From Eunapius fragilis (Eukaryota > Porifera > Demospongiae > Spongillida > Spongillidae), in the NCBI GenBank assembly GCA_963681505.1, contig OY811980.1, positions 7,263,572 through 7,327,571 of the forward strand: a stretch of DNA of 64,000 bases, read 5' to 3'. Positions 2,695-62,978 of the stretch are shown one piece after another. Position numbers and translations under genes: made by a program. The notes beneath the pieces were generated by a model, which saw only the letters and a program-made list of their open reading frames with translations, made no database searches and had not been told where the DNA came from. Within the stretch, counting starts at the first letter, position 1. Every line of letters begins with the position of its first letter.

Positions 2695-5600
2695 ATGGAT
2701 GCGTGGATGAAGTGTGTACCGTCTCTACTATTGTTGATCGCTCTGGAACAAGTGTCAGGTGCATGCATGGTTAATTAATGTATGATGGGCGCAGCAGTCT
2801 ACAGATTTCAGCCTTTGCATTCAAAATTACCTACAGTTTTGACAGAGAATATACGGGGAGGACAGAGGGAGGAAGAATGTTTGGTCTGTACGTGACAGGG
2901 CGGATACAGGGAGGGGAGTCCAACAGGGCCGTAGCGTCCAGTCCGGCCAGTCCGGCCATGGCCGGACCGGTTTTAGCCTAGCCAACTTCCAATTATTATG
3001 TAAATACTATAATTTATTAAATCCCTCATGATCTCCTACCCTCGCTCCCACCAATGGCCGGACCGGTTTATTTATCGTGGCTACGGCCCTGTCCAACGTA
3101 ATAAAATTGTAGACTTGTTCAACGACGACTGGGGCGCTCAACGGTGCTTTTTTGTTCGACGTTAATTACTTTATGACTTATACGAACGTAGACAGACGTA
3201 CGTACATGTATGTTGACGTTTGAAATTAAACCACGGCGGGCACAGCTGGTCAAAAGAAAAACAGGCTATACAACAGCCCTAGCCCCCAGGCCAGCTTATA
3301 GGGACAGTCCTAGTCCCCAGGCCAGCTATAGGGAGTAAAAGCCATTGACACCACTACCCAATAAACAGACAATGTTTTGTTGTGCCTTTTTATAAAGACC
3401 TCATTTTAATTCCATCATTTATCAGATCAGTAATATGGCTGGTCTAAAGATCTTAAGGAACACATGGGATATTGTACCATGAGGAGGTTGTCCATCCTCA
3501 ACTGTTAGTGATACTGATCTTGGGAAAGGGATTGTACTACTGACTAGGGCTGTCTTCCATGGGATCATTGCTATGTGTTGGCATGTGCATATAAATCAGT
3601 GAACTAAGTGTTCTTTAACCACCACAGGCCAGACTGTTGGAATCTTTTGGAATGTGTATGGCGCAAATCTAATGGTTGCCAACAACAGTCTGGTGACCCT
3701 CTCTGTGATCCAAAACAGAGTGAGTGCAACATCTACCCAACAGTTTCCTCTGGTGTGTGAGGGTATAACAGGTGGACAGTGGTATCAACCAAATGGAGCT
3801 CTGTTTCCACTAGCAACACCAGACCCTGTCACCACCCCTGGGGGGTTGGGTCAACGAAATGTGTCACATGGAGTAGAGCTGTATCGTGGAACTCCTTCTG
3901 ACTTCCCACATGGTGTTCAATGTTGTACCAATACCACCATCACACTCTGTGTTGGAATGTACTCTGATCTCAAAATAGCAGCATCATCAGGCATAATTGG
4001 AACTACTAGCTATGCTCTCTCTGTAGCAGCCACTTGTAAGTAGAGAGGAAAGTACATCACATGTGTTATGGAAGTGTTGACTCTCCCACAGATGGTCCTA
4101 ACATCACAGGAGGTGTCCAGTTTCAGCTGTTGACACCTACAAATGTTGATCCACCAGTGTTCCAGTTGACCTGCACCAGCACTAGTTCTCCTCCTACAAC
4201 TGTGCAGTGGACCATCAATGGAAGTCCAGTGAATGGTGGTAACTATGCTTCCTCTCAGATAGTGACAAATCAAACAACATCTACTTACAACAACACCCTG
4301 ACTGTGACTGGGAGAGCACCTGGGATGTACACATGCAATGTCACCACTACCTGCTCACCAGTGTGTGGAGGTACAGGGTTTACTCTCAATCCAAGATCCA
4401 CTACCTCATCCCTCAGTGTATCGGGTAAGTACTGCCTATGAAGAGTGTCTTGTACCTATAGACATGTACCTCTATACAGGTCCTCCTGCCCCACCCACTG
4501 GTGTCACTGCTATACAGTCTGGTCCCACATCTGTCAGTGTCTCGTGGACTGCACCAACCTCAGGTGGTCCAGTGAGCAGATATGATATCTACTATGTGAC
4601 TAATGGAGTCTCAAGTACAAGTGGTGGTTCAACCACTTCTACCTCTTATGTCCTAACCAACCTTCAAGTTGGGGTTCAGTACAACATCTCTGTCATAGCT
4701 GTGGGCACTTATATGCCATCTCAACTATCAGCAACAGGTACAAAGTCCTTTAAATATAGGTGATTTCAAACAAGATGATTGGTTCGGCTGCATTTAATCT
4801 TGTGCTTAAGTAAAGGTTGTTGTACCACATGTAGGCCTAATGTGTTGTGCTTAGGTTTTCTGGAATTGCAATTTCTGCTAGCATTTCAGCCAGTGTAAAT
4901 CTGGTCAATCTACAGCCTATTCCATCTGTATAAGATGTGCATTGTACATCTTTCAGTATACAGTCCACCACCTGGTCCAGTGAGTGGACTACAAGCCTTC
5001 AACAATACCTTCACAACCATCACACTCACATGGCTACCCCCTCCTACCCCCAATGGGGTGATCATCATGTATCAGGTGACCTACTCCACCAATGGAATAG
5101 TCAACACAGCCACACCCCCAGTGACAATAACAGGACTGGTACCAAGGACCCCCTACACCTTCTCTGTCATTGGTTACACCATCACAGGACCAGGGACACC
5201 ACAACAAGTACAGACCAGTACTGCAGCTATACGTGAGTGTACAGCTGTTACTGTATCTTACATTTGTTCACACATACACCTGCATGATGCTTTAATGTTG
5301 TACCCTTCAGCCAATGTGACAGGAGTGGTGGTAGTAGCCACCAACACAACATCTGTCAGAGTGTCCTGGCTGGTTGTCCAGTGGCTCCCTCAAGATGGCA
5401 TCCTTACAGGGTACACTGTATATTATCGTTCTCTTCCCAACACTTCAAAGAGGCAGTCGGGTGGGTACATCAGTCAGACCTTCCCACCAACCACCACCTC
5501 TGGGGACATCACCAACCTCAGTCCTAATGGAGTGTACCAGTTCAGTGTGGTAGCCATGGTGACCATTGCAGGACAGTCATACAATGGAGACATCCCATCA

Positions 5601-6074
5601 TCAGGAGGTGACACACCCACCATCATACCAGGTTAGGACTATCTCGTGGCAATATCACAAACCAATGACATGTGATGTTGAAGGTACCCCAAACAATATG
5701 AGCAACTCATACTCTGGAGGAGTGCTTGCTGGCTCACTTATAGCTGAGTTTGTTATCCTTGTGGTTGTCATGGTGATCATTGTGGTTGTGGTGGAGTACT
5801 ATAGGTGGAAACAAAGGTGTGATCTCTATTTAGAAACTGTTTGTGCTAATACTTTTTCTGACACTGATCAATCACAGTAAGGCATTCATTACAAGGTCAA
5901 AAAGTGAATACTCTAACACTCGGTAAACTGTTTGAACCAATACATACATCTCTCTCATGTTTGACCAATACATACATCTCTCTCAGTAATGTGATCACCA
6001 TGAAGTCATGTGATGCATATGATGAAATAGGAACAGGTGGACAGGGCAGCTATGAAGTGGTTGGACACAACTAA
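2695..6074 (+). CDS. Gene 1: Ig-Ig-FN3x3 transmembrane receptor with short ITAM-like tail
   Basis: Exons at 2695-2758, 3628-4035, 4092-4424, 4480-4737, 4957-5232, 5311-5631, 5684-5804 and 5987-6074 total 1869 nt (622 aa), open throughout. Exon 1 is a signal peptide (MDAWMK then a Leu-rich core). Then come Ig-like domain 1 (aa ~22-157, C..W and QCC..LC cysteines), a classical Ig domain (~158-268, ending GMYTC), three FN3 domains (~269-354, 355-446, 447-553), one TM helix (~565-588) and a 30-residue tail with YDEI-x7-YEVV, ending GHN. All extracellular introns are phase 1 and the TM-tail intron is phase 2. The TM exon acceptor (GATGTTGAAG) has a poor pyrimidine tract; if that 52-bp intron is retained, translation stops two codons after IIP, giving a soluble form. 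Ligand unknown. Confidence 0.8.
2924..3091 (+). mobile_element. CAGGGCCGTAGC-type MITE (hAT-like) with 5-bp target duplication
   Basis: The 168-bp insertion in intron 1 of gene 1 begins CAGGGCCGTAGC and ends GCTACGGCCCTG, flanked by TCCAA on both sides. The empty paralogous sites (GAGTCCAACGTAA) occur near 9493 and 38096. It contains an inner palindrome around GGCCATGGCC. An independent, oppositely oriented copy is at 8444-8610. CAGGG termini are typical of hAT elements; 5-bp duplications are known for some hAT groups. No coding capacity. Confidence 0.8.
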
Positions 6075-6480
6075 AGCGGAACAAACAGTTATATTTATGT
6101 ACAAGTGCCAAAAGACTTGCAAAGCAGTTACTGTACATTAATTGTAGTACTAGGACATTAGTTGGTTAACTATGTTTGCAGATGTACTTCTCTGAAATAG
6201 CAAAGATGTAAACTTTACATTTGTGTAAATATTTCTCCTCTGGTGTTATGGTTCACAGTGTGGTGTGGTATGTAGGCACTGCATGAGCTGGTAGCAAAAC
6301 CATCTGGATACCAATTTATGAGACTTCCCAGTTCAGCACTACCCTCTCCCAAACAACACAAACACAAATAGATTCTAAACGGAGACCACATTTTTGTTTG
6401 TTGGAGGCCTATTATTTTTTCAGGCACTAACAGTATTGTTTGTACTTGCAAAAAGATCACACATGGTTATTGTGATGAGC
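6075..6480 (+). other. Conserved 3' block of short-tailed receptors (probable 3' UTR/flank)
   Basis: Downstream of the stop codon, a block beginning near TTATATTTATGTACAAGTGCC and containing the TTATGGTTCACAGTGTGGTGTGGTATGTA stretch, then a T-tract ending TTTTTTCAGGCACTAACA, recurs at 13940-14290, 15470-15750, 41230-41640, 43210-43500, and inverted at 28250-28440 and 58510-58710. Its co-occurrence with tail exons and lack of a conserved frame argue for 3' UTR or flanking sequence, possibly with an untranslated 3' exon at the T-tract acceptor. Confidence 0.45.
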
Positions 6481-8663: not shown

Positions 8664-8883
8664 TACATCAGGCACTATTGGCTATACTCTCTCTGTAGCA
8701 ACCACTTGTAAGTAGAGAGGAAAGTACATCACATGTGTTATGGAAGTGTTGACTTTCCCACAGATGGTCTGAACATCACAGGAGGTGCCCTGTTGACACC
8801 TATAAATGTTGATTCACCAGTGTTCCAGTTGACCTGCACCAGCACTAGTTCTCCTGCTACAACTGTGCAGTGGACCATCAATT
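8664..8883 (+). pseudogene. Receptor fragment: end of Ig1 exon, intron, start of Ig2 exon
   Basis: The end of the first Ig exon (to donor at 8707), the conserved ~56-bp intron and the first ~120 bases of the Ig2 exon (from 8764) are present, with a 12-bp gap after AGGAGGTG. The exon is cut off after GTGGACCATCAAT and abuts another copy of the 5' flank (TTGTAGAGGAGAG). The fragment is nonfunctional and marks a recombination joint. Confidence 0.75.
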
Positions 8884-9280: not shown

Positions 9281-12200
9281 ATGGATGCGTGGATGAAGTC
9301 TGTACCGTCTCTACTATTGTTGATCGCTCTGGAACAAGTGTCAGGTGCATGCATGGTTAATTAATGTATGATGGGCGCAGATTTCAGCCTTTGCATTCAG
9401 AATTACCTACAGTTGTGAAAGAGAATATACGGGGAGGACAGAGGGAGGAAGAATGTTTGGTCTGTATATGACAGGGCGGATACAGGGAGGGGAGTCCAAC
9501 GTAACAAAGGAGAGTGTGTGAGAGGCGGTTCTCCTCTCCGGGCTGGGAGGGCATTGTAGACTTGTCCATCGAAGACTGGGGCGCTCAACGGTGCTTTTTT
9601 GTTCGACGTTGATTACTTATACGAACGTAGACAGACGTACGTACATGTATGTTGACGTTGAAATTAAACCACGGCGGACACAGCTGGTCAAAAGAAAAAC
9701 AGGCTATACAATGAACAGCCCTAGTCCCCAGGCCAGCTTATAGGGACAGCCATAGTCAGTACTCCACAGACCTGTCAGACCAGCTTATAGGGACAGCCCT
9801 AGTCCCCAGGCCAGCTTATAGGGACAGCCCTAGTCCCCAGGTCAGCTTATAGGGACTGCCCTAGTCCCCAGGCCAGCTTATAGGGACAGCCCTAGTCCCC
9901 AGGTCAGCTTATAGGGACAGCCCTAGTCCCCAGGCCAGGTTATAGGGACAGCCCTAGTCCCCAGGTCAGATTATAGGGACAGCCCTAGTCCCCAGACCAG
10001 CATATAGGGACAGCCCTAGTCAGTAGTACAATCTCTTTCCCAAGATCAGTATCACTAACAGTTGGGATAGACCATTACCTCCTCATAGTACAATATCCCA
10101 AGCCTTAACCCTTCAAGTGCCAGCCATGATACCAGAGAAATGGTGGAATCAGGCTAGATGAAACTATACAATACCAAAAGGCATCACAAAAACAATTGTG
10201 TGTTTTTTGGGTGGTGAATCAATGGGGAACAGAGTAAATAGTTCACTCCTCCCCTCACTCCTAACAATGTTGATGTCCACCTGTGCTCAGCATCCCTATA
10301 TCCCACACAGGCCAGACTGCTGGGATCACATGGAATGGCATGTGTAGCCAACAACAGTCTGGTGACCCTGGCAGTGGTCCTGCAGAGAGTGAGTGTGGTA
10401 TCTGGATCATTGTTTCCTCTGGTGTGTGAGGGTATAACAGGTGGACAGTGGTATCAACCAAATGGAGTCCTGTTTCCACTAGCAACACCAGACCCTGTAA
10501 CCACCCCTGGAGGGTTGGGTCAACGAAATGTGTCAGTAGGAGTAGAGCTGTATCGTGGAACTGCTTCTGTCTTCCCACATGGTGTTCAATGTTGTACCAA
10601 AACCACCACCACACTCTGTGTTGGAATGTACACTGATCTCACACTAGCAGCATCAGTACCAATAGCCCCTACTAGCTATGCTCTCTCTGTAGCAGCCACG
10701 TGTAAGTAGAGAGGAAAGTACATCACAAGTGTTATGGAAGTGTTGATTCTCCCACAGATGGTCCTAACATCGCAGGAGGTGTCCAGTTTCAGCTGTTGAC
10801 ACCTACAAATGTAAATCCACTAGTGTTCCAGTTGACCTGCACCAGCACTAGTTCTCCTCCTACAACTGTGCAGTGGACCATTAATGGAAGTCCAGTGAAT
10901 GGTGATAACTATGCTTCCTCTCAGATAGTGACTAATCAAACAACATCTACTTACAACAACACCCTGACTGTGACTGGGAGAGCACCTGGGATGTACACAT
11001 GCAATGTCACCACTACCTGCTCACCAGTGTGTGGAGCTACAGGGTTTACTCTCAATCCAAGATCCACTACCTCATTCCTCAATGTATCAGGTAAGTACTG
11101 CCTATGAAGAGTGTCTTGTACCTATAGACATGTACCTCTATACAGGTCCTCCTGCCCTACCCACTGATGTCACTGCTGTACAGTCTGGTCCCACATCTGT
11201 CAGTGTCTCTTGGACTGCACAAACCTCAGGTGGTCCAGTGAGCAGATATGATATCTACTATGTGGCTAATGGAGTCCCAAGTACAAGTGGTGGTTCAACC
11301 ACTTCTACCTCTTATGTCCTAACCAACCTTCAAGTTGGGGTTCAGTACAACATCTCTGTCATAGCTGTGGGCACTTATATGCCATCTCAGAGTGCTGGTG
11401 TCATACTGACTCTGAGTGAATACACGTTTCTGTCGGTTGAGCAAAGCGAATTAGACAGAAACTTAGCTCCCTCCCAAATGCGATTTGCGGTACAGCACGT
11501 GATGCTGCCACGTGCTGGGTGGGGTTTAAATGGGGATGCGTGCAGTAGAATTGTCATTCTAAGTGTTGTGCACACGTGCTGCAAACTTTTCAGTTTGGAT
11601 GCATTGCGCTGGGTATGCATTGGACAGGGGAATGTTGTGTTCCTTGACAGCACAGATAGACCAGCACGATAGAGGTGGCAAAGGAGAAGACCAGGACTGT
11701 CATGTGTAGAATTGACACAATATGATTATGTTGTTGGGAGCGTTTTCCTTGTGGCAGGTTTTGTCCCAAAGGGTTTTCCTGCTTCTGAGGTTTTTTATCG
11801 CTCCGTGTGTATGTCGTGTTTTGTAATGTTGATGTTCCATGTTGTTGTGTGTGTAATGGTGTTGGGGCAGCGTGCACAATGAACTTAAACCAAATTGGTG
11901 GTTGATAGGGAGGTGGGGTATCACGTGCGGCAGCGGCATGGGGAGGGAGGTCATCATATTATAGTTATGGTATTTAATCATTACCCTCTCCTCCTCCCCA
12001 GTTCCATCAACCCCCTCACCAATGGTAGCACAGGTCACCCCGACATCCATCACTGTCATGTGGTCACAGACTGCTGGAGAGATAGGTGCCACCTACACCC
12101 TCTCCCACACTTACCAGGGACCATGTACTTGTGGTGGTGGTAGTGGGAATGTGTCCATTGGCACTGCTACCCAGTACACCATCACTGGACTGCAGGAGTT

Positions 12201-13935
12201 CAGTCCCTACACCATCACCCTCACTGCCTCCAATGGTGGAGGGAGTAGCCCTCCAGCTAGTGTGAAAGTCAACACCTCCTCAGCAGGTGAGTTGGATGAC
12301 CTCATCTCAAGATGGCTGACTCCTTTCCCTTCTCTCTCCAACAGCTCCCTCTGCTCCTCCTAACAGCCTCACTCAAGTGACCAAGACCTCCTCCACTGTC
12401 ACCATCAGTTGGGGGGAAGTCCCATGTGTGGACCAGAACAGTGTAATAGTGGGGTACAGTGTTCTCTATGGACCTGTGACCAGAGGTGTGAGAGGGACAG
12501 TAGCTACCTCTGGGAGGGCAGTGACTGTGACTGGACTGGCTCCTTATACCAACTACTCCATTGAGGTGTCAGCAGTCAACAGTGATGGAGCCATGGGTCC
12601 TTATACCTCTCCTCTCTTTGTGGTGACTGAGCAAAGTGGTAAGTGTGAGGTGGATGAATATTGAAGGAGTGAATTATTCCTCTCCACACTAGCTCCTGGT
12701 CCAGTGAGTGGACTACAAGCCTTCAACAATACCTTCACAACCATCACACTCACATGGCTACCCCCTCCTACCCCCAATGGGGTGATCATCATGTATCAGG
12801 TGACCTACTCCACCAATGGAATAGTCAACACAATCACACCCCCAGTGACAATAACAGGACTGGTACCAAGGACCACCTACACCTTCTCTGTCGTTGGTTA
12901 CACCATCACAGGACCAGGGACACCACAACAAGTACAGACCAGTACTGCAGCTATACGTGAGTGTACAGCTGTTACTGTATCTTACATTTGTTCACACATA
13001 CACCTGCATGATGCTTTAATGTTGTACCCTTCAGCCAATGTGACAGGAGTGGTGGTAGTAGCCACCAACACAACATCTGTCAGAGTGTCCTGGCTGGCTG
13101 TCCAGTGGCTCCCTCAAGATGGCATCCTTACAGGGTACACTGTGTATTATCGTTCTCTTCCCAACACTTCAAAGAGGCAGTCGGGTGGGTACATCAGTCA
13201 GACCTTCCCACCAACCACCACCTCTGGGGACATCACCAACCTCAATCCTAATGGAGTGTACCAGTTCAGTGTGGTAGCCATGGTGACCATTGCAGGACAG
13301 TCATACAATGGAGACATCCCATCATCAGTAAGTGACATACCCACCATCACACCAGGTTAGGACTATCTCATGGCAATATCACAAACTAATGACATGTGAT
13401 GTTGAAGGTACCCCAAACAATATGAGCAACTCATACTCTGGAGGAGTGCTTGCTGGCTCACTTATAGCTGAGTTTGTTATTCTTGTGGTTGTCACAGTGA
13501 TCATTGTGGTTTTGGTGGAGTACTATAGGTGGAAACAAAGGTGTGGTCTCTATTTAGAATCTGTTTGTACTAATACTTTTTCTGACACCAATCAATCACA
13601 GTAAGGCAAGATCAAAAAGTGAATATTCTAACACTCGGTAAACATTTTGAACCAATACATACATCTCTCTCATGTTTGAACCAATACATACATCTCTCCC
13701 ATGTTTGAACCAATACATACATCTCTCCCATGTTTGAACCAATACATACATCTCTCCCATGTTTGAACCAATACATACATCTCTCCCATGTTTGAACCAA
13801 TACATACATCTCTCCCATGTTTGAATCAATACATACATCTCTCTCAGTGATGTGATCACCATGAAGTCATGTGATGCATATGGTGAAATAAGAACAGGTG
13901 GACAGGACAGTTATGAAGTGGTTGGACACAACTAA
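9281..13935 (+). CDS. Gene 2: Ig-Ig-FN3x5 receptor with ITAM-like tail (frame depends on acceptor choice)
   Basis: Exons: 9281-9344 (MDAWMKSVPS signal), Ig1 to 10701, 10758-11090 (Ig2), FN3 at 11146-11397, 12002-12286, 12345-12638, 12693-12956 and 13035-13355, TM 13408-13528, tail 13848-13935 (YGEI-x7-YEVV, ends GHN). It has two FN3 domains more than gene 1 (exons at 12002 and 12345). With the acceptor used by its paralogs (10311) the Ig1 exon is frameshifted by a 2-bp loss (ATG--TGTAGCC against ATGTCTGTAGCC in gene 5). Using the upstream AG at 10290 restores a 411-nt exon in frame, giving 2433 nt (810 aa) but replacing the start of Ig1 with ASLYPTQARLLG. It is either a rescued or a recently damaged gene. 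Confidence 0.65.
9716..10022 (+). repeat. 31-bp minisatellite in intron 1 of gene 2
   Basis: About nine copies of a 31-bp unit (CAGCCCTAGTCCCCAGGCCA then GCTTATAGGGA). Shorter versions sit at the same intron position in gene 1 (3278-3332) and gene 5 (38265-38412). Confidence 0.85.
13663..13846 (+). repeat. 29-bp VNTR directly before the tail-exon acceptor
   Basis: Six to seven copies of TTTGAACCAATACATACATC + TCTCCCATG run up to the CTCTCAG acceptor of the tail exon. Equivalent arrays precede the tail exon in gene 1 (5931-5986, two copies), gene 5 (40914-41078), gene 4 (28586-28730, inverted) and gene 7 (58863-59095, inverted). The unit itself contains a pyrimidine tract resembling the acceptor. 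ORFs on the opposite strand (MYVLVQTWERC repeats) are by-products. Confidence 0.9.
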
Positions 13936-32812: not shown

Positions 32813-32897
32813 CGGATCGCCTAAGTGGTGGTTTCGCCCACTTAAAGAACAATTTACTGGTCTGGTAACGAGACCGAAAGCCCCTCCCAAAATGAAT

Positions 32898-40800: not shown

Positions 40801-41225
40801 TCTCTATTTAGAATCTATTTGTGCTAATACTTTTTCTGACACTGATCAATCACAGTAAGGCATTCATTACATGTCAAAAAGTGAATATTCTAACACTCGG
40901 TAAACAGTCAGAACCAATACATACATCTCTCTCATGTTTGAACCAATACATACATCTCTCCCATGTTTGAACCAATACATACATCTCTCTCATGTTTGAA
41001 CCAATACATACATCTCTCTCATGTTTGAACCAATACATACATCTCTCTCATGTTTGAACCAATACATATCACTCTCCCAGTGATGTGATCACCACGAAGT
41101 TATGTGATGCATATGGTGAAATAAGAACAGGTGGACTTGATGTGATCACCACGAAGTCATGTGAGGCATATGGTGAAATAAGAACAGGTGGGCAGGACTG
41201 CTATGAAGTGGTTGGACACAAGTAA
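37846..41225 (+). pseudogene. Gene 5: decayed Ig-Ig-FN3x3 short-tailed receptor
   Basis: The layout equals gene 1: signal 37846-37909 (MDARMKSVPS), Ig1 38690-39091, Ig2 39148-39404, FN3 39460-39723, 39935-40207 and 40289-40609, TM 40662-40782, tail 41081-41225. Lesions: the Ig1 cysteine codon TGT is TGA (38806 region), followed by a 1-bp loss and 1-bp gain. The Ig2 exon lacks 76 bp, removing its tryptophan strand. The donor after the second FN3 is AT instead of GT. The 3' half is still open, and the tail has an in-frame partial duplication with two YGEI motifs followed by YEVVGHK. The 31-bp minisatellite is at 38265-38412 and the 29-bp VNTR at 40914-41078. Confidence 0.8.
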
Positions 41226-51700: not shown

Positions 51701-54700
51701 CATCCTCCTCTCCTACATCCTCCTCTTCCCCCTCCTCCCTTTCCTCCTCCCCCCTCTCCCCCATTGGTGGTATAATTGGTGGAATCATTGGAGCACTGGT
51801 GGTTGTGGTGTTGATTATCTTCATTGTTGCCATAGCAATACTCCTCCTGAGGTAGGCTACCCAGCAGTATGTACAATTCATTACCATTGTCCACAGACGT
51901 AGGGAAAATGGAGCTACCGATCCAGAAGCAGTCTATGACATGGATGAAAAGTGAGTGGGCATTATTAATACCATTATTAATGAATCCCTATACAAGAAGT
52001 CAGTTTGCATCTTAGTCATGAATATGTTACTACAAAGAAAAGAAAATATTCTCTAAAGAGAAAGTTGGTGGGATATAGGAATTGGAGGCAAAGGTGGTGT
52101 AAAAAGGAACGAACACAGGATCAACAATGATACGAAAAATTTGAAAGTCCTGTTTTTAGCAACATAAAATGTATGTGCTATACAGAAGTGCTAAATATAG
52201 GACTTTATAAAATATTTTGTATATCCCTTGTTTCCTTCCTTTTTACACCACCGTTGCCTCCAATTCCTATATCCCACCAACTTTCTTGTTAGAGAATATT
52301 TTTCTTTATTTGTTTCCTCTATGTTATTTAATTATTTTTTAAGCTCTCCTCTTTTTTTTTGACGTGAAGGCATTTTGACAAAAACAACATCGCTAGCCAA
52401 AAGTGGTGAATAAAAACTGCGATCAAATGAAATGCCACCTGCTGCACAATTCTAATTATACGTGAATGTTGCCACGGGAACGCTTTAACATAGCACTGCA
52501 TATTACGTGATTACGTAAATCAGTTTCATGCTTTATTGATGTATCTGATACATGTACCTGAAGATGTTCTTTCAGGAGATTTGATATAACTTGCGCTCTA
52601 AAAAAAACCGTTCCTATCCCGAGAAGATGAGAAGAATTGGTCTGGGAACGAGAACAAACGTTTGTGTTCTCTTAGCAAACAGTTAGAAGATTGGATATAA
52701 CTGTCTTTTTCCTTCTGGTTCAAAAGCAACAAAGAACTAAACTATCCATCTTTTGGTACGCGAGTTATATGTGGGTCGCTTTTAATAAATGTTTTCACAA
52801 TCCGGGTCAAATCCTATATAGTTCCTACAAAAATTTAAAGCCATATTGGTTGGCTAGTCATCACTCGCCTCATACCATGACCACCTCATACCATGACCAC
52901 CTCACACCATGACCATCACCTCCTCATACTATGACCGCCTCATGCCGTGACCATCACCTCTTCATGCCATGACCATCACCTCCTCATACCATGACCACCT
53001 CACAACATGACCATCACCTCCTCATACTATGACCGCCTCATGCCATGAACATCACCTCTTCATGCCATGACCATCACCTCCTCTTACCATGACCATCACC
53101 TCCTCATACCATGACCATCACCTCCTCCTAACCATGACCATCACTACCTCATATCATGACCATCACCTCCTCATACCAGACCATCACCTCCTCATACCAT
53201 GACCATCACCTCCTCATACAGTGACCATCACTTCCTCATACCATGACCATCACCTCCTCATACCATGACCTTCGCCTCCTCATACCATGACCAGCACCTC
53301 CTCATACCATGACCATCACTCTCCTTAGACCCAGTGCTCATAAGTCTGAAGTAGTGACCTATGAAGTTGTAGGTGACAAGAAGTAAGCTCACATACACAC
53401 CCATCACCTCCTTCTCCCTCTACACTTCTCTCATGTTCCACCTCCAGCAATTCCCCTCCCCATACCTGTCCCCTTTAACTCTCTTTTGTATGATGTCTGT
53501 TACGTGTGTTGGTTGCTTTCAGAAACGACCCTCCCACCAAATCATCAAGTCCCCAGACCATACCCAGTGCCCAGGCCATGGGTAGCACCCATGATCATCA
53601 ATATCTGAACATTAAAAAAACAGGTATCCTCTTCCCCTCTTCTCCACTACCCCCTCTACCACCAACATCTCTCATTCCCTTTCTCTTTAACCATTTCCTT
53701 TCCTACCCTTCTATACTCTCCCCTTTCTCTCTCCTCTCTCTTTCCCATTCTCTCTTTCCCATCCTTCTTCCTTTCTTAAGCCTTCCGTATTCCCTATTCC
53801 TTCTCTCCCCTCATTCAGTCCCCTCCCCCTGCTTCCCCTCCCTCCTCCTCTCCTTCCTTCCCTCCACTCACCAATGCCTCCTCTCATTCCAGTTCCCACC
53901 ATTAAGGAGTTCCCCTCTAACCGTGATGTGGTGGATGGGGAGGAGGTGGTCTTCAATGTTCGTGTCACAGGATACCCAAGGCCCTCCTTCACCTGGTACC
54001 ATAACGGGACCAAGGTCACCACAGACTACTCCCTCACCATTGGGGAGGATGGAAGCCTTGTCATCCACACAGCAGAGATGAAACATGCAGGTGTGTATGA
54101 ACTGGAGGTGGCCAATGAACTAGGTGTGTACAGACGTAAAGTGTCCCTTGGTGTGTATGGCAGTGAGATAGAGCTGCCTGGGGACTACCAGATGACCATA
54201 CCAATAATACCATTGGCCAAGTTAGGAAAGTATGTATCAAAAAATCGTGAGAAAACCAATGCTGGGTTCAACAATCAGTACAGGGTGAGTGGGTCTATCT
54301 CCATGGTAACAAGAGGGCTTTAACCCTTATGTGCTCTAAACTAGTCTCTGGAGTCCAGTACCAAACGTCCCTCCACTGTGGCCACTAGTGCTGATAATAA
54401 GACACTTAACAGATTTGCCAACATTGTGCCCTGTGAGTTTGGGGTTTAGAGGACTGGGGATGAGGGATCACGTGCCACACCCTCATGCCTACAGATGATG
54501 AGAATCAAATCCAGCTCTCTCCAATGGAGGGTCAACAAGACTGTCAGAGGAGCTACATCAATGCTTCTTACATTTCTGTGAGCACTTGAATTGATGGTGT
54601 GTTCCATGAACTACAAGATGTGTTCCTTCTTAACAGGGACACTCAGGGCCAAAGAAGTTCATAGCCACTCAAGGTAGCTCACCTCTCGTGAAGCATGTGA

Positions 54701-56818
54701 CCTCTTACCTCCTCCATCTTTCCCCCTCTCTCCAAGGTCCTCTTCCACCTACTATTGTGGACTTCTGGAGGCTGGTGTGGCAGGAGGGTGTGCCTTCCAT
54801 CGCCATGGTGACCAACATCAAGGAGGATGGCAAGATCAAGTGTCAGCAGTACTGGCCAGAGTCAGGCCATCAGAAGTATGGACCCTTCTCTGTAGCCACC
54901 ACTGAGAAAAAGGAATATGCAGACTATGTCATCAGGGTCTTTGAAGTGTCTGTGAGTTTTAGTGGGCAACTGATGCTCAGGATACTGTGGGATACTGTGG
55001 GATACTATCTGCAATGCGTAATTAAAGCCTGGATGGTTGGATTCTGCTAGCAATATACTGTAACTCCATACTGTAACTAGCTACACGATTTACTGAGGGT
55101 CATACATTTATTGTTGTTGGTACACTGTCTTTCTACCACCCTCTATAAAATTGCACTCTCCTAATCCATCAGCATTAGTGTGTACTAGTGTTGCTATGAT
55201 AACAATAATAGTTAGTGTAGTATGGGCTGGGTAAGTAGTCATTTGTTCACAATCATGGCAAAGCCAACATTTACACCACCAAGATAGACTGCACTGAAAT
55301 AGTTTATTTATCACATGCATAGTAACTCTTATTAGTACACACCAATGCTAATGGACAAGGAGGGTACAATTCTGTGTGAGCAGCCAAGCATTAAGGACTG
55401 GGGACCACTAAGATAGCATCAGTGTGTATGCTAGCATCCTTATATAAGAAATGTGGCATGGTTCCCAGTCCTTCCACCCTCTCATCCTCCTCCCATAGCT
55501 GTCAGGGTCAGATGTACCCAAAAGGAAGGTGATCCAGTATCACTTCACTGGCTGGCCTGACCATGGGGTACCAGAGTATGCCACCTCCCTCTTGGCCTTC
55601 CACAGGAAGGTCAAGTCCCAACATGATGGGGGCAGGGGACCCCTCTTGGTACACTGCAGGTGGGTGAGGGGAGGAGGGAGAGGGGTGTCATGGTGACCCC
55701 TGTGACCCTACAGTGCTGGTGTGGGGCGCACGGGAACACTGATTGCGATAGACACAGTCCTGGAGCAGATAGAGAAGGAGGGAATGGTGGACATAGCCGG
55801 TACCATCAGGAAGATGAGACGACAGAGGATGAAGATGGTTCAGACACCTGTAGGTCACCTCCTGTAGCCCCTCCCACCCCTCTCTCATGCCCCTCCCACT
55901 TCCTCTATCACAGGATCAGTACATATTTCTCCATGATGCCATTCTGGAGTCAGTGATGTGTGGGAACACTCAGGTCCAGGTCTCTGATATCCATGTCTCT
56001 CTGAACTCATTCCAAACCAAGGATCCTGTGTCAAATAAAACTGGACTGGAATCTCAGTTTGAAGTACTTGTGACATTCCATCTCTGATGTGATTGGTTGA
56101 TTCATCATCTGTATGTGCAGGTCCTGGGACAAGTGTCCCCTGATCCCACATCAGTCCGCAGAGATGTTGCCATGGAGGAAACAGGAAAGAACCGCAGTAT
56201 AGACTACCTCCCTCGTGAGTAGGGGGGAGAGGGAGAGGAATGGTGGGGAGGGAGGGAGGTAGAAGGAAGAGGAGGAGAGGGATGAGGAAATGGCCTCGCC
56301 ATTGTGTTAGATTTTCATCATGTACACATTCTCTCTGTGTGCAGCTGACAGGTCTCGTGTTATCCTCAGACATGAATATCCTGATTACATCAATGCCTGC
56401 TTCGTTAATGTCAGTACTGGTTGCTGCCTGTCATTAAGGTTAGGGTTGCCATGACTACATTGCTCCTCCCACCCCAGGGATACAAGCAACAGAAGGCCTT
56501 CATTATAGCCCAAGGTCCCTTGAAGTCCACATGTAGAGACTTCTGGAAGATGGTGTGGGACAAAAAATGTGGAGCCATTGTCATGTTATCCCAGCTCCAG
56601 GAGAAGGGGAAGGTGGGCGGAGCCCTAACTGGTGCCCAGACCATTATTAGTCCTATGTGGTATATAGGAGGTATGTCACCAGTACTGGCCAGACCAAGGG
56701 ATAGAGAGCTATGGAGAGTTCACCATAGAGAGTGGAGGGCAGGAGGTCCATGATGGCTACACCACAAGGACACTGTACCTGGCTGCTGCCAAGGTGGGTG
56801 TGGCCACTGTTGATCTGT

Positions 56819-56857
<39 letters not shown>

Positions 56858-57396
56858 GTGTATGGTCCTCTGTAATCAACTAAACATCTGCAGAGTACAC
56901 AAATACATCAAGTGACCCAGTTCAAAATCACCAACTGGACACCTGATGGGGTGTGTGCTAACCTTGCCACCATCACTGATGTCATTGAAGAGGTGGACAA
57001 GGTGCAGAGAGGGACTGGGAACCACCCCATGGTGGTGCACTGCAGGTACCTCCTCCCCATCCCAACCATAGCCCCCTTTGGATCATGCGAGGTCACATAA
57101 TCCTTCCTCCTCCCCCTTCCAGTGACACAGTGGGAAGGTCTGGTATGTTCTGTGCCATCACCATGGTGACCCAGCAGTGTAAAGCTGAAGGAGTGGTGGA
57201 TGTGTTCCAGACAGTAAAGGCTATTCGTACCCATAAGCCTGGAGCTGTACTCACTGTGGTAAGCTGTACTTAGTACTCTATTGAACCATAGGGTTATCTG
57301 TTTATATCTCCATGGATACAGGACCAGTACCAGCTAATCTTTAAGGTAGTGGTGGTCTTCCTTGATCAGTTCAACCAGTACTCTAACTTCCGATGA
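45745..57396 (+). CDS. RPTP-B: paralog of RPTP-A with the same domain plan
   Basis: Exons: 45745-45787, 49980-50390, 50447-50791, 50847-51095, 51614-51851, 51897-51950, 53329-53382, 53523-53623, 53893-54284, 54345-54432, 54495-54577, 54637-54673, 54737-54951, 55499-55659, 55714-55849, 55914-56063, 56121-56214, 56345-56409, 56478-56612, 56668-56793, 56894-57045, 57123-57258, 57322-57396; 3540 nt (1179 aa), open. Signal [15 protein letters not shown], Ig, Ig, FN3, stalk seven residues longer than in A, TM, linker, I-set, D1 ([17 protein letters not shown]) and D2 ([17 protein letters not shown]). The linker motif is VTYEVV (ITIM-like), where RPTP-A has GTYEAV. Ig1 has an extra Cys (ELYCGTP for ELYRGTP). 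Intron 1 is inflated to 4.2 kb by a hAT element. Confidence 0.9.
47098..48677 (-). mobile_element. Decayed hAT transposon inserted in intron 1 of RPTP-B
   Basis: About 1.58 kb is absent from the unit A intron (near 18166-18175). Ends are GC-rich and contain CCCGGGCC motifs (CAGCCCGGGCCGCC at left, GGGCCCGGGG...GGGGCTG at right). The minus strand around 48290-48110 reads [21 protein letters not shown], then (frameshifted) [16 protein letters not shown] and [10 protein letters not shown]. This is the pattern of the hAT C-terminal dimerisation region (AERSFS...LR...S.E.A..LDF..II..FA). Stops and frameshifts make it inactive. No clear target duplication was found. Confidence 0.65.
47785..48093. 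mobile_element. Foldback MITE nested in the hAT element
   Basis: Long inverted arms (over 100 bp each) run from CAAGTAAA..CATTCTCTCTGAGAAAG through GTTGGTGGGATATAGG and CTATATTTAGCACA, then back. A related element is at 52035-52310 in another RPTP-B intron and a partial one at 16655-16790. Confidence 0.85.
49068..49572 (+). repeat. 45-bp minisatellite, degenerate unit B array
   Basis: About eleven copies of the 45-bp unit of 18498-19151, with several units shortened or interrupted (for example ATACACGCATGAACCAG). It is therefore less homogeneous than the unit A array. Confidence 0.9.
52035..52310. mobile_element. Foldback MITE in the RPTP-B intron after the first cytoplasmic exon
   Basis: Inverted arms TATTCTCTAAAGAGAAAGTT...GGTGGGATATAGG and CCTATATCCCACCAACTTTC...AGAGAATA, with GTGCTAAATATAGGACTTTA inside. 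It is absent from the homologous RPTP-A intron (21123-22996). Confidence 0.75.
52865..53325 (+). repeat. ~22-bp minisatellite, unit B
   Basis: Same CCTCCTCATACCATGACCAT family and intron as 21340-22990 but about 3.5 times shorter and without the ~440-bp higher-order blocks. Confidence 0.9.
56818..56853. repeat. TG dinucleotide repeat in an RPTP-B intron
   Basis: About 17 TG units in the intron between two D2 exons. The RPTP-A intron (26638-26731) has only scattered TGTG at the same place. Confidence 0.85.
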
Positions 57397-57534: not shown

Positions 57535-58290
57535 TGATATCACTGCTAGTGGGGACAGTAGAGATGGTACATATCACTGCTAGTGGGGACAGGAGAGATG
57601 GTACATATCACTGCTAGTGGGGACAGGAGAGATGGTACATATTACTGCTAGTGGGGACAGGAGAGATGGTACATATCACTGCTAGTGGGAACAGGACATA
57701 TCACTGCTAGTGGGGACAGGGGAGATGGTACATATCACTGCTAGTGGGGACAGGAGAGATGGTACATATCACTGCTAATGAGGACAGGAGAGATGGTACA
57801 TATCACTGCTAGTGAGGACAGGAGAGATGGTACATATTACTGCTAGTGAGGACAGGAGAGATGGTACATATCACTGCAAGTGAGGACAGGAGAGATGGTA
57901 CATATCACTGCTAGTGAGGACAGGAGAGATGGTACATATCCCTGCTAGTGAGGACAGGAGAGATGGTACATATCACTGCTAGTGGGGACAGGGGAGATGG
58001 TACATATCACTGCTAGTGGGGACAGGGGAGATGGTATATATCACTGCTTGTGAGGACAGGGGAGATGGTACATATCACTGCTAGTGAGGACAGGAGAGAT
58101 GGTACATATCACTGCTAGTGGGGACAGGAGAGATGGTACATATCACTGCTAGTGAGGACAGGAGAGATGGTACATATAACTGCCAGTGAGGACAGGGGAG
58201 ATGGTACATATCACTGCTAGTGGGGACAGGAGAGATGGTACATATCACTGCTAGTGGGGACAGGGGAGATGGTACATATCACTGCTAGTC
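57535..58290 (+). repeat. 34-bp minisatellite, unit B
   Basis: About 22 copies of the unit described at 27368-28003, between the convergent RPTP-B and gene 7. Confidence 0.95.
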
Positions 58291-61200
58291 CTTATCTTTC
58301 TGTGTCCTCACACTCTCCTGGGATGTCACTACTACTTCCTAATAAAGTTTTGCTGTGTTCCCTTTACTTCTAGGTAGTGCAACTCTGACCAGTTAGGATT
58401 CAGGGGGGGTGGGGAGGCTGCTCCGTCGTAAATATGATGAATTTCATTATTAGCGTGAGCAATTAAATCTATAGATGCTTTGTTGGCTTCCATCTATCAC
58501 CGTTGTTCCATCAATGTATTCCTTCCAGGCACCAATAATATTGTTCGTACATGCAAATACAATAACACAGAGCTGTGAGTAAATAGATTATGTTTGCTCC
58601 CAGCTATGTGCTTACATACCACACCACATTGTGAACCATAACTCCAGTAGAGAAGTATCTCACACAAATGTAAAGTTTTCATCTTGCACTTTAGTAAACA
58701 TAACTGTTTGTTCTGCTTTAGTTGTGTCCAGCCACTTCATAGCAGTCCTGTCCACCTGTTCATATTTCACCATATGCATCACATGACTTCATGGTGATCA
58801 CATCAAGTCCACCAGTTCTTATTTCACCATATGCATCACATGACTTCATGGTGATCCCATCACTGAGAGAGATGTATGTATTGGTTCAAACATGGGAGAG
58901 ATGTATGTATTGGTTCAAACATGGGAGAGATGTATGTATTGGTTCAAACATGGGAGAGATGTATGTATTAGTTCAAACATGGGAGAGATGTATGTATTGA
59001 TTCAAACATGAGAGAGATGTATGTATTGGTTCAAACATGAGAGAGATGTGTGTATTGGTTCAACATGGGTAAGATGTATGTATTGATTCAAACACAATGT
59101 GATGTGGCTGATTTCTGCTTTTGGCACTTTAAACATGACGACTACAATCCTCTTATTCCTCATCCATTGGTTGATTGGTTGTTGCTATAATGCTACTTGA
59201 AATGTTGGTGAATTCTGGACCAAATATGACAGGTTTATTCCCTTTATGTCATGTTCTCCTTATAAGTCCTCTGTACCAAAGCATATGACATAAAGAAGCA
59301 ATGGTACTCAAAGGATAAACAGATGTATAAAATGATTGATAAAAAATGTGGTGATCAGTCAAATATCCAAGGAATTAGATTTTAATAGCACTTATCATGA
59401 CTCTAACTCCAAAGAATTTAAATTGAATTTTTTTGAATTCTTGACTAGACTGTTTAAAGACATTGAATGCATCAAACAAGTCCAGCAAGATCATTACTTA
59501 AATGTGCATGGTTTCCTCATCATAGATTATACAACTTGCTTAGTAAACATTTAGAATACCATAGTGTGTTATGTGACCTTGTGATGTGTTAAATGATTAA
59601 GAGAAAGCTAGAGCTAGTGTGGTTGTGAATATGTCTGAGATACTCTCAGTCAGTGTTTCATGCTTGCTCTTGCAGCCTATTTCTACACCTCACTATGAGG
59701 TGTCGAAATGTCATTAGCACATTTTTCATGTCATGTTATTACCCATCAGGATCACTTTCCCCAAGCATGTTAAATCTGCTCAAAATCTTGCCACCTTTAA
59801 ATCCTATATCTCAGTGATGCTGACCTGTTCCCTTCCTGCAAATTTATATCCCAATAAGTAGGCAGTACACAAGTGGATTTATATTACCTGCCTGATCAGT
59901 GTGTTGTTTTGTAGATTATATTAGTTCAACCATGCATGTATTGATTCAAGATGCATAGCAATTGTTGCTGAACTTGAGGGTTATGCCTTGGTCCTACAGC
60001 TTTATGTAACCATACAGGGTACATTAATTATATATCTGTACTAACAGTTCTTTTTTTTTTTTAATGTAGGTACTGCTGTTAACATGCAACTTACTTTTTG
60101 TCTCCAACTTCATAAGTGACACCTTCAGCATTAAGAGGAGTACTTCTGGGTGGAAAGAGGGAGGGAGGGGATGGGAGGAAGGGAAGGAAGGGAGGGGAAG
60201 TGGCAGGGAGGGAAAGAAAAGAGGAGTCAGTAAGAAAAAAGTGGGCAGGAGAAAGAAGAGGGAGGTGGTGGGAGGAGAAAGGCGAGAATGTACATGAACT
60301 TACTTGTCACCTACAACTTCATAGGTCACTGCTTCAGACTTATGAGCACTGGGTCTAAGGAGAGTGATGGTCATGGTATGAGGAGGTGATGGTCATGGTA
60401 TGAGGAGGTGATGGTCATGGTTTGATGAGGGTATTGTCATGGTTTGATGAGGGTATTGTCATGATATGAGGAGGATAGGTCATGGTATGAGGAGGTGATG
60501 GTCATGGTAGGAGGTGATGGTCATGGTATGATGAGGTGATGGTCATGGTATCCAACAAGACAAGGCAGTGGTCCACCTAAGCCTTTACAGCAGGCTGAAC
60601 CTCAACTAACACTATAACTATACAAGTTACGAAAAATAAATTACAATGATACATACACGCCACTGAACGATCTCATTGTTATAGGCAAATGCATGTGTAA
60701 GTCATACATAATTGACCCTGGTATTATTACTCAGTAATGATTATGTCCACTCACTTCTCTTCCATGTCATAGACTGCTTCTGGTTTGGTAGCTCCATTTT
60801 CCCTACGTCTGTGGACAATGGTAATGAAATATACATACTGCTGGGCAGCCTACCTCAGGAGGAGTATTGCTATGGCAACAATGATGATAATCAACACCAC
60901 AACCACCAGTGCTCCAATGATCCCACCAATTATACCACCAATGGGGGAGGAGGAGGAGGAGGAGGAGGAGGAGGGGACACTTGAAGATGGAGGGGTAGTG
61001 TAGGGTAGTACAGATAGGCGATGGTAACACTAGCTGTGGGGAGAGATACAAACATACGAGAATGAGGAGAAACAGGCTAGGTAGGAGGAGGTGGGAGAGG
61101 GGTAGGAGGTGGAGGGGACCGCACTTGAAGATGGTGACGAGATGGTGGTTGTATGAAGAGGGTAGCCACTTGAGATGAACACCAAGGTACTGCTTGTATT

Positions 61201-61346
61201 AGCTGTGGTGGACGAAATATCGAGTATATATACAAGGATACACGGGGATAAGCAGAGGTATACTGGGATATGCAAGGTGGTCATCAGCTGTAATATGGGT
61301 CACATTTCATAAGGGACAACACACTTGGAACTCGTAATTCAAAATC

Positions 61347-61505
61347 TGGCTAGCTGAAGTAAATGTTAATGTAATGACACATGGTGTACAGTATGATGCC
61401 CTGGGGGCCGGGCAAGGTAATGTGTGTTGTGGAATAACAGAAGTAATTCATGATTATAATTTATGCGTAATGATGGAAGTGTGGATGTGAATGTTTTGAA
61501 AATCA
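61347..61505 (+). other. Inverted intron segment within gene 7
   Basis: The sequence from GGCTAGCTGAAGTAAATG to GATGTGAATGTTTTGAAAAT reads in the + orientation as in RPTP-A/B intron 4 (20484, 51117). In gene 4 the homologous intron segment (30640-30790) reads in the minus orientation with its gene. The local inversion is therefore specific to gene 7. Confidence 0.75.
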
Positions 61506-61647
61506 AGAACATGGTCAACAAAACATACCACTCTGAGATGGCAGATAAGTGCCCACAGCTATGACAGAGATGTTGTACTGAACTAAGAGGTAGAAGTGGT
61601 TGAACCACCACTTGTACTTGGGACTCCATTAGCCACATAGTAGATAT

Positions 61648-61890
61648 AACACAAACAGTCCGAAGGACTGTGTGTGTTAGAAGAAAAAATTAGGGCTTAG
61701 GGCAGGGTAGGGGGGGCCGAAGGCCCGCTACGCCCCTCAATTTTTCACCCCCTCTCCGAATCCGACCTCAAATTGCACCCGTCCCTCCCTCCCGACACTC
61801 TTCATTGAAACTCGCTAACTCGTCTCCCCGTTAATAAACGCCATCTTGGATAGAACGAGGCGCCTGCGGCGCCACACTCTACCCTTCTCA
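61648..61890. mobile_element. Unclassified insertion in the gene 7 FN3 exon
   Basis: About 245 bp interrupts the FN3 exon between GTAGATAT and TCTGCTCACTGG, replacing four bases of the intact exon. It starts with a small hairpin (AACACAAACAGTCC / GGACTGTGTGTGTT) and is GC-rich (GGGGGGGCCGAAGGCCCGC). No copy elsewhere in the window. Confidence 0.6.
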
Positions 61891-62978
61891 AATCTGCTCA
61901 CTGGACCACCTGAGGTTGGTGCAGTCCAAGAGACATTGACAGATGTGGGACCAGACTGCACAGCAGTGACATCAGTGGGTGGGGCAGGAGGACCTGAATA
62001 CAGGATTACACACTTGTGGTGAAGTGCAGTTGATTAGGGGAGAAGTTATAGTGGTGACACTGCATGTGTACATCCCAGGTGCTCTCCCAGTCACAGTCAG
62101 GGTGTTGTTGTAAGTAGATGTTGGTCGATCTGTCACTATCTGAGAGGAAGCATAGTTACCACCATTCACTGGACTTCCATTGATGGTCCACTGCACAGTT
62201 GTAGGAGGAGAACTAGTGCTGGTGCAGGTCAACTGGAACACTGGTGGATCAACATTTGTAGGTGTCAACAGCTGAAACTGGACACCTCCTGTGATGTTAG
62301 GACCATCTGTGGGAGAGTCAACACTTCCATAACACATGTGATGTACTTTCCTCTCTACTTACAAGTGGCTGCTACAGAGAGAGCATAGCTAGTAGTTCCA
62401 ATTATGCCTGTTGCATTAGCTAGTGTGAGATCAGTGTACATTCCAACACAGAGTGTGATGGTGGTATTGGTACAACATTGAACACCATGTGTGAAGTCAG
62501 AAGGAGTTCCACGGTACAGTTCTACTCCTCGCGACACATTTCGTTGACCCAACCCCCCAGAGGTGGTTACAGGGTCTGGTGTTGCTAGTGGAAACAGGGC
62601 TCCATTTGGTTGATACCACTGTCCACCTGTTATACCCTCACACACGAGAGGTTTCATGTATGCTGATTGGTCGGATGTATTCACTCTGTTTGGTACTGCT
62701 GAGAGAGACCACAGACTGTTGTTGGCAGCCATCACAAACATTTCATTCTGATTCCAGGTGATCCTAGGTTGGCCTGTGTGGAGGGTATGAAGTAATACAT
62801 CAATACAACACCACAAGTGTAATGTGCATGAGGGTGTGTTGGTAGAGCAGGATGTACTGGTGAAGATGTATATCCGTGATCTCTACATAACAAGATGGTG
62901 GCAATGGTACATGTGTTGACCTTAACTGATTCAATTGCAAAGTGCACTGTATAAGGCATGTCGTCTTAATCTCTCCCC

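Follow-up and report, generated by a model that had tools for sequence, protein, structure and literature searches.

The DNA analysed here, called the window, is a 64-kb stretch of the genome of the freshwater sponge Eunapius fragilis, assigned with near certainty to chromosome 10 and represented by a single primary haplotype. It contains seven copies of one receptor head, which sort into three gene classes (Table 1). Class A comprises genes A, B and E on the forward strand; class C, the receptor phosphatases (RPTPs), comprises genes C and F on the forward strand; class D comprises genes D and G on the reverse strand, convergent to C and F, respectively. Of the seven genes, B, E and G are damaged and the other four intact. 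The preliminary description had placed this locus in a sponge, which is correct. It had also described seven shared ectodomains of two Ig domains plus FN3. The seven copies were recovered, but three of the seven are damaged, the first domain matched nothing in Pfam or the PDB and is not demonstrably Ig, and the number of FN3 domains rises to three in A and E and to five in B, with a different TM exon. In gene B, the frame is lost in the first head exon (10311-10701). In gene G, a stop separates the tyrosines of the tail exon, which ends in YEVA, and no signal-peptide exon for this gene was found in the remainder of the window.

Table 1. Genes, exons and domains of the head-bearing receptors in the window.
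Feature	Position	Strand	Remarks
First head exon starts	A 3628, B 10311, C 19347, D 31917, E 38690, F 49980, G 62773	A, B, C, E, F +; D, G -	
Gene A (class A)	2695..6074	+	AG/GT at every junction, one terminal stop, intact 646-aa frame
A, signal-peptide exon	2695-2758	+	
A, head domain 1	3628-4035	+	
A, Ig exon	4092-4424	+	
A, FN3 exons	4480-4737, 4957-5232, 5311-5631	+	Pfam fn3, three stretches
A, stalk/TM exon	5684-5876	+	
A, tail exon	5987-6074	+	YDEI-x7-YEVVGHN, then stop
Gene B (class A)	9281..13935	+	Tail YGEI-x7-YEVV
B, two additional FN3 exons	12002-12286, 12345-12638	+	
Gene C (class C RPTP)	17353..27233	+	23 exons, intact 1176-aa frame
C, head	19347..20465	+	Domain 1 19347-19760, Ig 19817-20161, FN3 20217-20465
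C, Ig FG-loop segment	20062..20130	+	Hypervariable; between YTC and RSTTSS
C, Ser/Thr stalk and TM exon	20807..21023	+	TM read by eye
C, three small juxtamembrane tail exons	21069..23320	+	21069-21122 YDMD, 22997-23050 YEAV, 23211-23320 YLNI
C, cytoplasmic I-set and juxtamembrane segment	23591..23982	+	Pfam I-set
C, tandem PTP exons	24047..27233	+	D1 with [18 protein letters not shown]2 with [16 protein letters not shown]
Gene D (class D)	28441..32812	-	Convergent to C; intact 516-aa frame with stalk exon 30343-30487 skipped
D, signal-peptide exon	32746-32812	-	
D, head exons	31507-31917, 31115-31459, 30812-31060	-	
D, stalk/TM exon	30132-30318	-	
D, tail exons	30033-30086, 29707-29748, 29462-29512, 28441-28585	-	
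D, terminal tail exon	28441..28585	-	YGEI ... YGEI-KTGGQDC-YEVVGHN, then stop
Gene E (class A)	37846..41219	+	Pseudogene-like; in-frame stops in head domain 1, Ig deletion
Gene F (class C RPTP)	45745..57396	+	Intact 23-exon frame; I-set 53893-54284
Gene G (class D)	58718..62773	-	Convergent to F; Ig/FN3 exons disrupted

The identity of the head domains was then assessed. Head domain 1 gave no Pfam or PDB match, either as a single sequence or as a 21-member set or profile; its profile had no similarity to the Ig domain profile, and its AlphaFold2 model (pLDDT 31) had no confident fold. Because none of these four approaches gave a positive result, the head was renamed from Ig-Ig-FN3 to unclassified Cys domain–Ig–FN3. 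Head domain 2 is recognizable as an Ig sequence, marginally so: Ig_2 scored 27.7 bits in D against a cut-off of 27, and stayed below it in A (25.0) and for the C exon alone (26.7), and a search of the PDB with its weak model (pLDDT 57) gave no similar fold at E 0.001.

The two copies described earlier as carrying tandem tyrosine phosphatase domains are genes C and F. Each combines a signal peptide, a TM segment and two PTP domains, of which D1 is predicted to be catalytic, with signal peptides and TM segments read by eye and with a simple hydrophobicity scan. Pfam analysis of spliced C returned Y_phosphatase (E 9e-156), I-set (3e-19) and fn3 (1e-13), far beyond chance. WPD and [10 protein letters not shown] are present in D1 of the C and F models, and the first phosphatase domain of C is, as judged from its sequence, active-looking. 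In a further copy of class C, 7018775, the frame is open but exon 20 has no clear acceptor.

Unexpectedly, both C and F carry an I-set domain that follows the TM segment and precedes the PTP domains, a feature absent from the preliminary description. In C, both disulfide cysteine positions are replaced, by V and L. To our knowledge, an RPTP with a cysteine-less I-set on the cytoplasmic side is a new RPTP architecture. The phrases 'intracellular Ig domain' and 'cytoplasmic immunoglobulin' were not found among the matches listed in a literature search.

The remaining five copies had been described as short-tailed with tyrosine motifs; YxxI and YxxV were present in A, B, D and E, but the tail exon of G is interrupted by its stop. 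The D tail, modelled with stalk exon 30343-30487 skipped because its inclusion breaks the frame, has six tyrosines and five Yxx[LIVM] sites, a number reached by 9 of 5000 shuffles. The ITAM consensus is Yxx[LI]-x(6-8)-Yxx[LI] and the ITIM consensus is [SIVL]xYxx[IVL]. The strict ITAM had no match in the four tails tested, and the ITAM-like arrangement YxxI-x7-YxxV occurred in A and D (reached by 64/5000 and 115/5000 shuffles, respectively). Two ITIM-consensus sites were found in D (84/5000 shuffles) and one in F (339/5000), with none in the A or C tails. D combines ITIM-consensus with ITAM-like motifs, which leaves its signalling polarity ambiguous; as read from sequence, the outputs of the phosphatase and of the YxxI/YxxV tails may be opposed. 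SH2 and tyrosine-kinase domains are present in the same genome, and among the matches listed (134 of 1095 candidates scored) no kinase domain fell inside the array on chromosome 10 at 6.9-8.25 Mb.

Beyond the window, the tandem array proposed earlier extends over approximately 1.3 Mb with approximately 75 head loci, and convergent C-D pairs recur within it. The first head domain had 101 matches in its own genome, the best beyond the query itself at E 3e-85. Among 24 I-set matches, 15 were close copies; 14 of these had a same-strand head upstream, and 12 had an opposite-strand tail exon at most 15 kb downstream. Tail exons had a same-strand head within 6.5 kb in 36 of 40 cases, the 40 remaining from 55 matches after removal of 15 partial ones.

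Similar ectodomains in linked genes, a paired-receptor criterion, were found in these convergent neighbours: C and D heads had no fixed differences across 1,020 aligned exon columns, with shared states at 83 sites, and class labels explained nothing of head variation (2470/5000 shuffles). The heads of C and D thus form one sequence pool, in agreement with the earlier proposal of a single head type with either phosphatase or tyrosine-tail outputs. Mosaic tracts run between the two classes: summed squared shared tracts exceeded all 300 site shuffles, and all 500 shuffles when the FG loop was omitted, consistent with ectodomains homogenized between partners, although the test on synonymous sites only (29 sites) was not significant (161/500). 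C-D pairs within one cassette were not closer than random pairings (527/5040).

The Ig FG loop, assigned in C from sequence position rather than structure, is hypervariable: residues vary in 22 of its 27 columns, compared with 28 of 91 outside it (Fisher p 4e-6). No exact loop match was found between C (8 sequences in ten genes) and D (6 in eight); the near matches C8/D8 and C7/D7 differ by one or two residues. Constraint differs between the domains of class C: in five of the six full genes, dN/dS was 1.33 for Ig, 0.31 for PTP D1 and 0.23 for D2, and the Ig value over all 18 heads was 0.95, not above 1. The phosphatase domains are, on these substitution ratios, constrained. High dN/dS can also reflect relaxed constraint.

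A paired-receptor-like locus with RPTPs as one partner is probably real. The shared and mosaic C and D heads, the hypervariable loop and the constrained phosphatases all resemble paired receptors; weighing against this reading are the lack of any exact FG-loop match between C and D, a first head domain without demonstrable Ig identity, tails without a strict ITAM, the ambiguous polarity and the largely broken class A. The best explanation of the data, which we hold with somewhat better than even confidence, is a sponge paired-receptor array with three type-I receptor classes behind one head. The common head consists of a Cys domain specific to this family, an Ig domain whose FG loop is hypervariable, and FN3. 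Short tails with YxxI/YxxV terminate class D and also class A, of which intact members are rarer; in class C, a cytoplasmic I-set domain precedes the tandem RPTP. Most likely, C and D would bind ligands that are identical or overlap, whether the two receptors sit on a single cell or face each other at a contact. Src-type kinases would phosphorylate the D and A tails, on which SH2 proteins would then dock; co-ligated C would strip these phosphates or act on the kinase in a CD45-like manner, and the response would be set by the ratio of C to D engagement. Head exchange between inverted C and D would allow both tails to keep a similar binding face as the FG loop diversifies.

A rather unlikely alternative is a recently amplified adhesion-type RPTP family, in which heads are alike only through the youth of the cassettes, paired signalling does not take place, and the short-tailed copies serve as decoys or are by-products in decay. 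Low dS throughout, PTP exons included (0.034-0.068), speaks for it, as do a mostly broken class A (1 of 9 copies intact), the non-significant within-cassette and synonymous-only tests, and two near-identical block pairs of 13 and 22.5 kb (6925001-6937990/6958353-6971333, 99.87%; 7038659-7061116/7061319-7083775, 99.91%). Class D does not fit this account: only one of the five copies that were read completely is not intact, the head is open in 8 of 9, and D_7035512 has an intact frame by projection with the D template. In the copies read, C and D have different terminal tails, and only the 3' 33-37 bases of their signal peptides are alike (86-89%), which indicates that the classes split before the amplification; despite this split, C-D heads are no more distant (0.051) than C-C heads (0.053).

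The block pairs could also be unmerged haplotypes, making much of the array an assembly artefact, and the available text of the assembly publication gives 802 gaps and a contig N50 of 0.49 Mb (PMC12616128). According to the same source, the Ensembl annotation of this assembly (GCA_963681505.1) derives mainly from transcript alignments; the alternate haplotype has the accession GCA_963681495.1. The artefact view is very unlikely, given that heads differ by approximately 5% on average, that FG loops differ between copies, and that only three pairs of stretches of at least 1.5 kb reach at least 98.5% identity in the 264 kb compared. We regard as extremely unlikely the view that the short-tailed forms are splice alternatives of RPTP genes, with one head in one transcription unit, an outcome that the preliminary description had named as fatal to its own reading. 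Gene D is encoded on the opposite strand and has a signal-peptide exon, a head, a TM segment and a stop to itself, as do three D genes in a 200-kb stretch, and D was accordingly ruled out as a splice form of C. Gene A likewise possesses a separate signal-peptide exon, TM segment and stop; here the splice view draws on extra tail exons at 15384 and 43123, and on the position of class A, which precedes C on a common strand and could be joined to it by read-through splicing.

Among known systems, the sponge RPTPs resemble the LAR-type/R4 tandem RPTPs (PTPRS/F/D, PTPRA) in their tandem PTP domains, with the best PDB matches to PTPRA (6uzt, E 2e-150) and PTPRS. LAR has Ig/FN3 ectodomains, as in the sponge array. 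Unlike these proteins, the sponge RPTPs have an unclassified first head domain and an I-set between TM and D1, and have been amplified next to short-tailed genes whose head they share. The proposed paired-receptor array also resembles vertebrate paired immune receptors (CD300A/C, CEACAM1/CEACAM3, Siglec-11/-16); for the latter two pairs, the available text describes near-identical ectodomains, differing cytoplasmic outputs, linked genes and head homogenization (PMC5112662, PMC5701461). Xenopus CEACAMs come close in their opposite orientation and diversifying binding face: conversion confined to the ligand-binding exon, inverted partners and FG-face diversification are described there (PMC5112662, in part). 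The sponge differs in that its partner is itself a receptor phosphatase rather than an ITIM receptor recruiting one, in its tails without a strict ITAM, and in its phylum, Porifera.

The Hydractinia allorecognition complex (Alr), with 41 IgSF genes and ITAM/ITIM on candidate genes, is likewise an invertebrate array of Ig-type receptors; its Ig domains are V-set/I-set, whereas the sponge head is an unclassified domain with Ig and FN3, and the available portions of the two sources mention no RPTP member (PMC11999971, PMC12065747). In Botryllus, opposing receptors (fuhc/fester) have been proposed for one recognition decision, and CD45-like receptor phosphatases are expressed in ampullae; unlike the sponge genes, fester and uncle fester have no known signalling domains, and the phosphatases are not described, in the sections available, as carrying the same head as the receptors (PMC12065747).

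A sponge immune/allorecognition complex is possible, and we put it forward tentatively: RPTPs with a cytoplasmic Ig domain would serve as inhibitory partners, matched to tyrosine-tailed partners by inverted-neighbour recombination, with a CDR3-like loop diversifying. A 2025 review, in its available text, calls invertebrate allorecognition mechanisms a 'complete mystery', notes that the proteins put forward as candidates in sponges, cnidarians and ascidians show no conservation among one another, and includes the sponge aggregation factor family in its reference list (PMC12065747). With a single head type behind which either a phosphatase or a tyrosine tail stands, with its inverted pairs and its hypervariable loop, the megabase-sized array offers named, testable receptor candidates and a new candidate system for recognition of self, strangers or microbes. 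Taken together, these data suggest that Porifera evolved paired-receptor logic, by origin or by convergence, in a form that uses a receptor phosphatase as one partner; if the array is indeed an immune/allorecognition complex, paired recognition logic would exist beyond Bilateria and Cnidaria.

Self-comparison and exon searches resolved the seven head copies, genes A to G by position, into three classes sharing an ectodomain of domain 1, Ig and FN3 (table). Signal peptides and transmembrane (TM) stretches were identified by eye together with a simple scan. The tandem PTP domains ascribed to two copies in the preliminary description are present in genes C and F with intact frames: gene C encodes 1176 aa in 23 exons with AG/GT at all junctions and a single terminal stop, and gene F has the same intact layout. 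Gene D is intact (516 aa) provided that one in-between stalk exon is skipped, and gene A is intact at 646 aa. The class D and class C signal peptides are alike only over their last 33–37 bases, and the class D terminal exon reads YGEI ... YGEI-x7-YEVV-GHN before its stop. The proposal of seven copies behind one head holds for the common head, but B, E and G are damaged; a signal-peptide exon sought for gene G was not found in the remainder of the window. Extra ITAM-like tail exons lie 3' of B and E, and likewise after several class A genes of the array; these are possibly alternative 3' exons. Isolated head fragments were read as relics of lost copies.

Receptor classes and further features (window, position within the 64-kb stretch; C9, C10, C16, chromosomes)
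Feature	Position	Strand	Genes and layout
Class C		+	C, F: signal-peptide exon (MIAFVL...), domain 1, Ig, FN3, Ser/Thr stalk and TM, 3 small tail exons, I-set exon, tandem PTP exons
Class D		-	D, G: own signal peptide (MHHHICYSF...), common head, TM resembling class C, tail exons YDMEEK, VTYEVV, VTYEIV, terminal exon
Class A		+	A, B, E: third signal-peptide type, head, 2-4 additional FN3 domains, distinct TM, tail Y[DG]EI-x7-YEVV
Extra tail exons	window 15384-15455, 43123-43206		3' of B and E
FN3/Ig head fragments	window 135-317, 8763-8882, 32887-32991		
Minisatellites, 45-, 22-, 34-base units	window 18499-19152, 49058-49572, 21389-22993, 52891-53325, 27375-27999, 57537-58289		
Near-identical blocks, 99.87%	C10:6925001-6937990 / 6958353-6971333		
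Near-identical blocks, 99.91%	C10:7038659-7061116 / 7061319-7083775		first member ends in class C copy without I-set/PTP exons
Second tandem-RPTP type	C10:7550000-8200000		L001, L002, L004-L008
Strongly diverged heads	C16 (41%); C10:6369096 (34%)		
SH2-kinase genes	C9:163096-171643		three genes

The head had been described as Ig-Ig-FN3. Domain 3 is FN3 (52 bits, cut-off 25) and domain 2 marginally Ig (Ig_2, 27.7 bits in D and 25.0 in A, cut-off 27), while domain 1 is left unclassified. It is ~137 aa long, and its cysteines C44, C99, C100 and C108 are nearly invariant; a Pfam search with 21 members gave a best E of 0.14 across any family, its profile matched nothing in the PDB at E 10, and its predicted fold had a pLDDT of 31.

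The class C PTP region has matches to PTPRA (E 2e-150) and PTPRS that extend across both domains. In the first PTP domain, D1, WPDHGVP and [10 protein letters not shown] are conserved in 5/5 copies compared; the second, D2, shows [10 protein letters not shown] together with WTPDGV where WPD is expected, and probably has weak activity or none. The I-set domain of gene C (residues 497–583, E 3e-19) is placed on the cytoplasmic side because it lies between the sole TM stretch seen and D1, which starts at 644. Its best PDB match is titin, and in alignment with DSCAM the two disulfide cysteine positions are occupied by V and L, as expected in a reducing cytosol. Minisatellites occupy corresponding sites in the two RPTP units, within introns and directly 3' of the PTP stop, and may promote recombination.

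On the tail side, composition shuffles reached YxxI-x7-YxxV in 64/5000 cases for A and 115/5000 for D, the five Yxx[LIVM] sites of the D tail in 9/5000 and its two ITIM-consensus sites in 84/5000; a pattern scan with the ITAM and ITIM consensus found no strict ITAM in the four tails tested. Both tyrosines are kept in 21/21 tail exons of the window and a further 200 kb, although these exons are closely related and do not count as independent cases. The YEVV ending is missing from two, and in one of these, G, a stop separates the tyrosines. Candidate tail partners exist, since SH2 domains (70 matches) and tyrosine kinases (at least 154 matches, to a family also covering other kinases) are both encoded in the genome, joined within one open frame in at least four cases on C9; no kinase lay inside the array among the matches listed. 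Three C9 genes have SH2 then kinase in a single open frame, in Src-like order and apparently intronless there.

The window lies at C10:7263572-7327571. Assembly odEunFrag1.1 comprises 218.91 Mb in 23 chromosomes and a 28.5-kb mitochondrial genome, according to its description (PMC12616128). Sequence C24 carries cox1 as well as a gene for ATP-synthase subunit c (Pfam E 9e-14), which is flanked by cytochrome-b-like and nad4-like frames. Such a gene content is typical of demosponge mitochondria. Searching the genome with head domain 1 gave 101 matches, or 92 loci after nine second fragments were dropped. The tandem array proposed earlier is borne out by 75 of these on C10 at 6.9–8.25 Mb; 3 lie elsewhere on C10 and 14 are dispersed over C1, C2, C4, C7, C11, C16, C19 and C22. 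Dispersed heads on C1, C11 and C19 have a same-strand tail exon downstream.

Neighbourhood counts identify the convergent C-D pair, or cassette, as the repeating unit: of 15 close I-set copies, 14 are preceded by a head on their own strand and 12 are followed within 15 kb by a tail exon on the other strand, and 36 of 40 tail exons have a same-strand head at most 6.5 kb away. Across the fully read 264 kb (the window and 200 kb), six class C copies are full-length: five are intact and have canonical splice sites, and the sixth has an open frame and an unclear acceptor. A seventh copy has neither I-set nor PTP exons. Of the class D copies 4/5 are intact, and of those of class A 1/9, the nine including two near-identical duplicate pairs. 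The near-identical blocks are either very recent duplications or unmerged haplotypes.

Among the matches listed (97 rows; 150 of 365 candidates scored), 47 PTP clusters fall on C10 at 6.9–8.25 Mb, and 28 of them lie no more than 13 kb from a head on the same strand: 10/11 before 7.5 Mb and 18/36 after it. A second tandem-RPTP type, with ~45–58% identity in the better-matching PTP exons, in part has the same head exon 4.7–12.5 kb upstream on the same strand. Since several clusters after 7.5 Mb are of this type, at least two phosphatase families seem to use the head.

The head comparison covered ten copies from class C and eight intact ones from class D. No fixed C/D difference occurs in the 420, 354 and 246 columns of the three head exons, in which 30, 44 and 9 sites have at least two states common to both classes. 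Mean distances are 0.053 among C, 0.050 among D and 0.051 between C and D, and class-label shuffling gave equal separation in 2470/5000 cases. In the copies read, each class has its own terminal tail and, for most of its length, its own signal peptide, so the classes should predate the cassettes; head exchange between C and D best explains the lack of separation. A Sawyer-type statistic, the sum of squared shared tracts over C-D pairs, lay above 300/300 shuffles (248 sites, introns included) and, without the FG loop, above 500/500 (189 sites); restricted to the 29 sites in fully synonymous codons, it was not significant (161/500). Same-cassette C and D were not significantly closer than random partners (527/5040).

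Pooled pairwise dN/dS values, which carry no confidence limits, were 0.69 (domain 1), 1.33 (Ig), 0.41 (FN3), 1.19 (tail exons), 0.83 (I-set), 0.31 (D1) and 0.23 (D2) in five of the six full class C genes, and 0.83, 0.95 and 0.71 for domain 1, Ig and FN3 over all 18 heads. The Ig FG-loop segment varies in 22/27 columns versus 28/91 elsewhere (p 4e-6), with eight sequences in ten C and six in eight D, and no C matches any D exactly among them.

We consider a paired-receptor array the best explanation, and a reasonably probable one. The array resembles paired receptors in anatomy and evolutionary pattern: published work on Xenopus CEACAMs describes conversion limited to the ligand-binding exon, partners in opposite orientation and a diversifying FG face (PMC5112662), and that on Siglec-11/16 describes binding domains kept alike through repeated conversion (PMC5701461). 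A recently amplified RPTP family without paired signalling is rather unlikely; the absence of an exactly shared FG loop, which counts against fully matched partners, makes it slightly stronger and the paired-receptor array slightly weaker.

No comparable sponge locus appeared among the open-licence papers listed. The sponge array differs from known paired receptors in that a receptor phosphatase stands where the ITIM receptor would be. The polarity, ligand, expression and biological role of the receptors are what we infer: most likely, phosphorylation of the D and A tails would be weighed against class C phosphatase activity upon ligand engagement.
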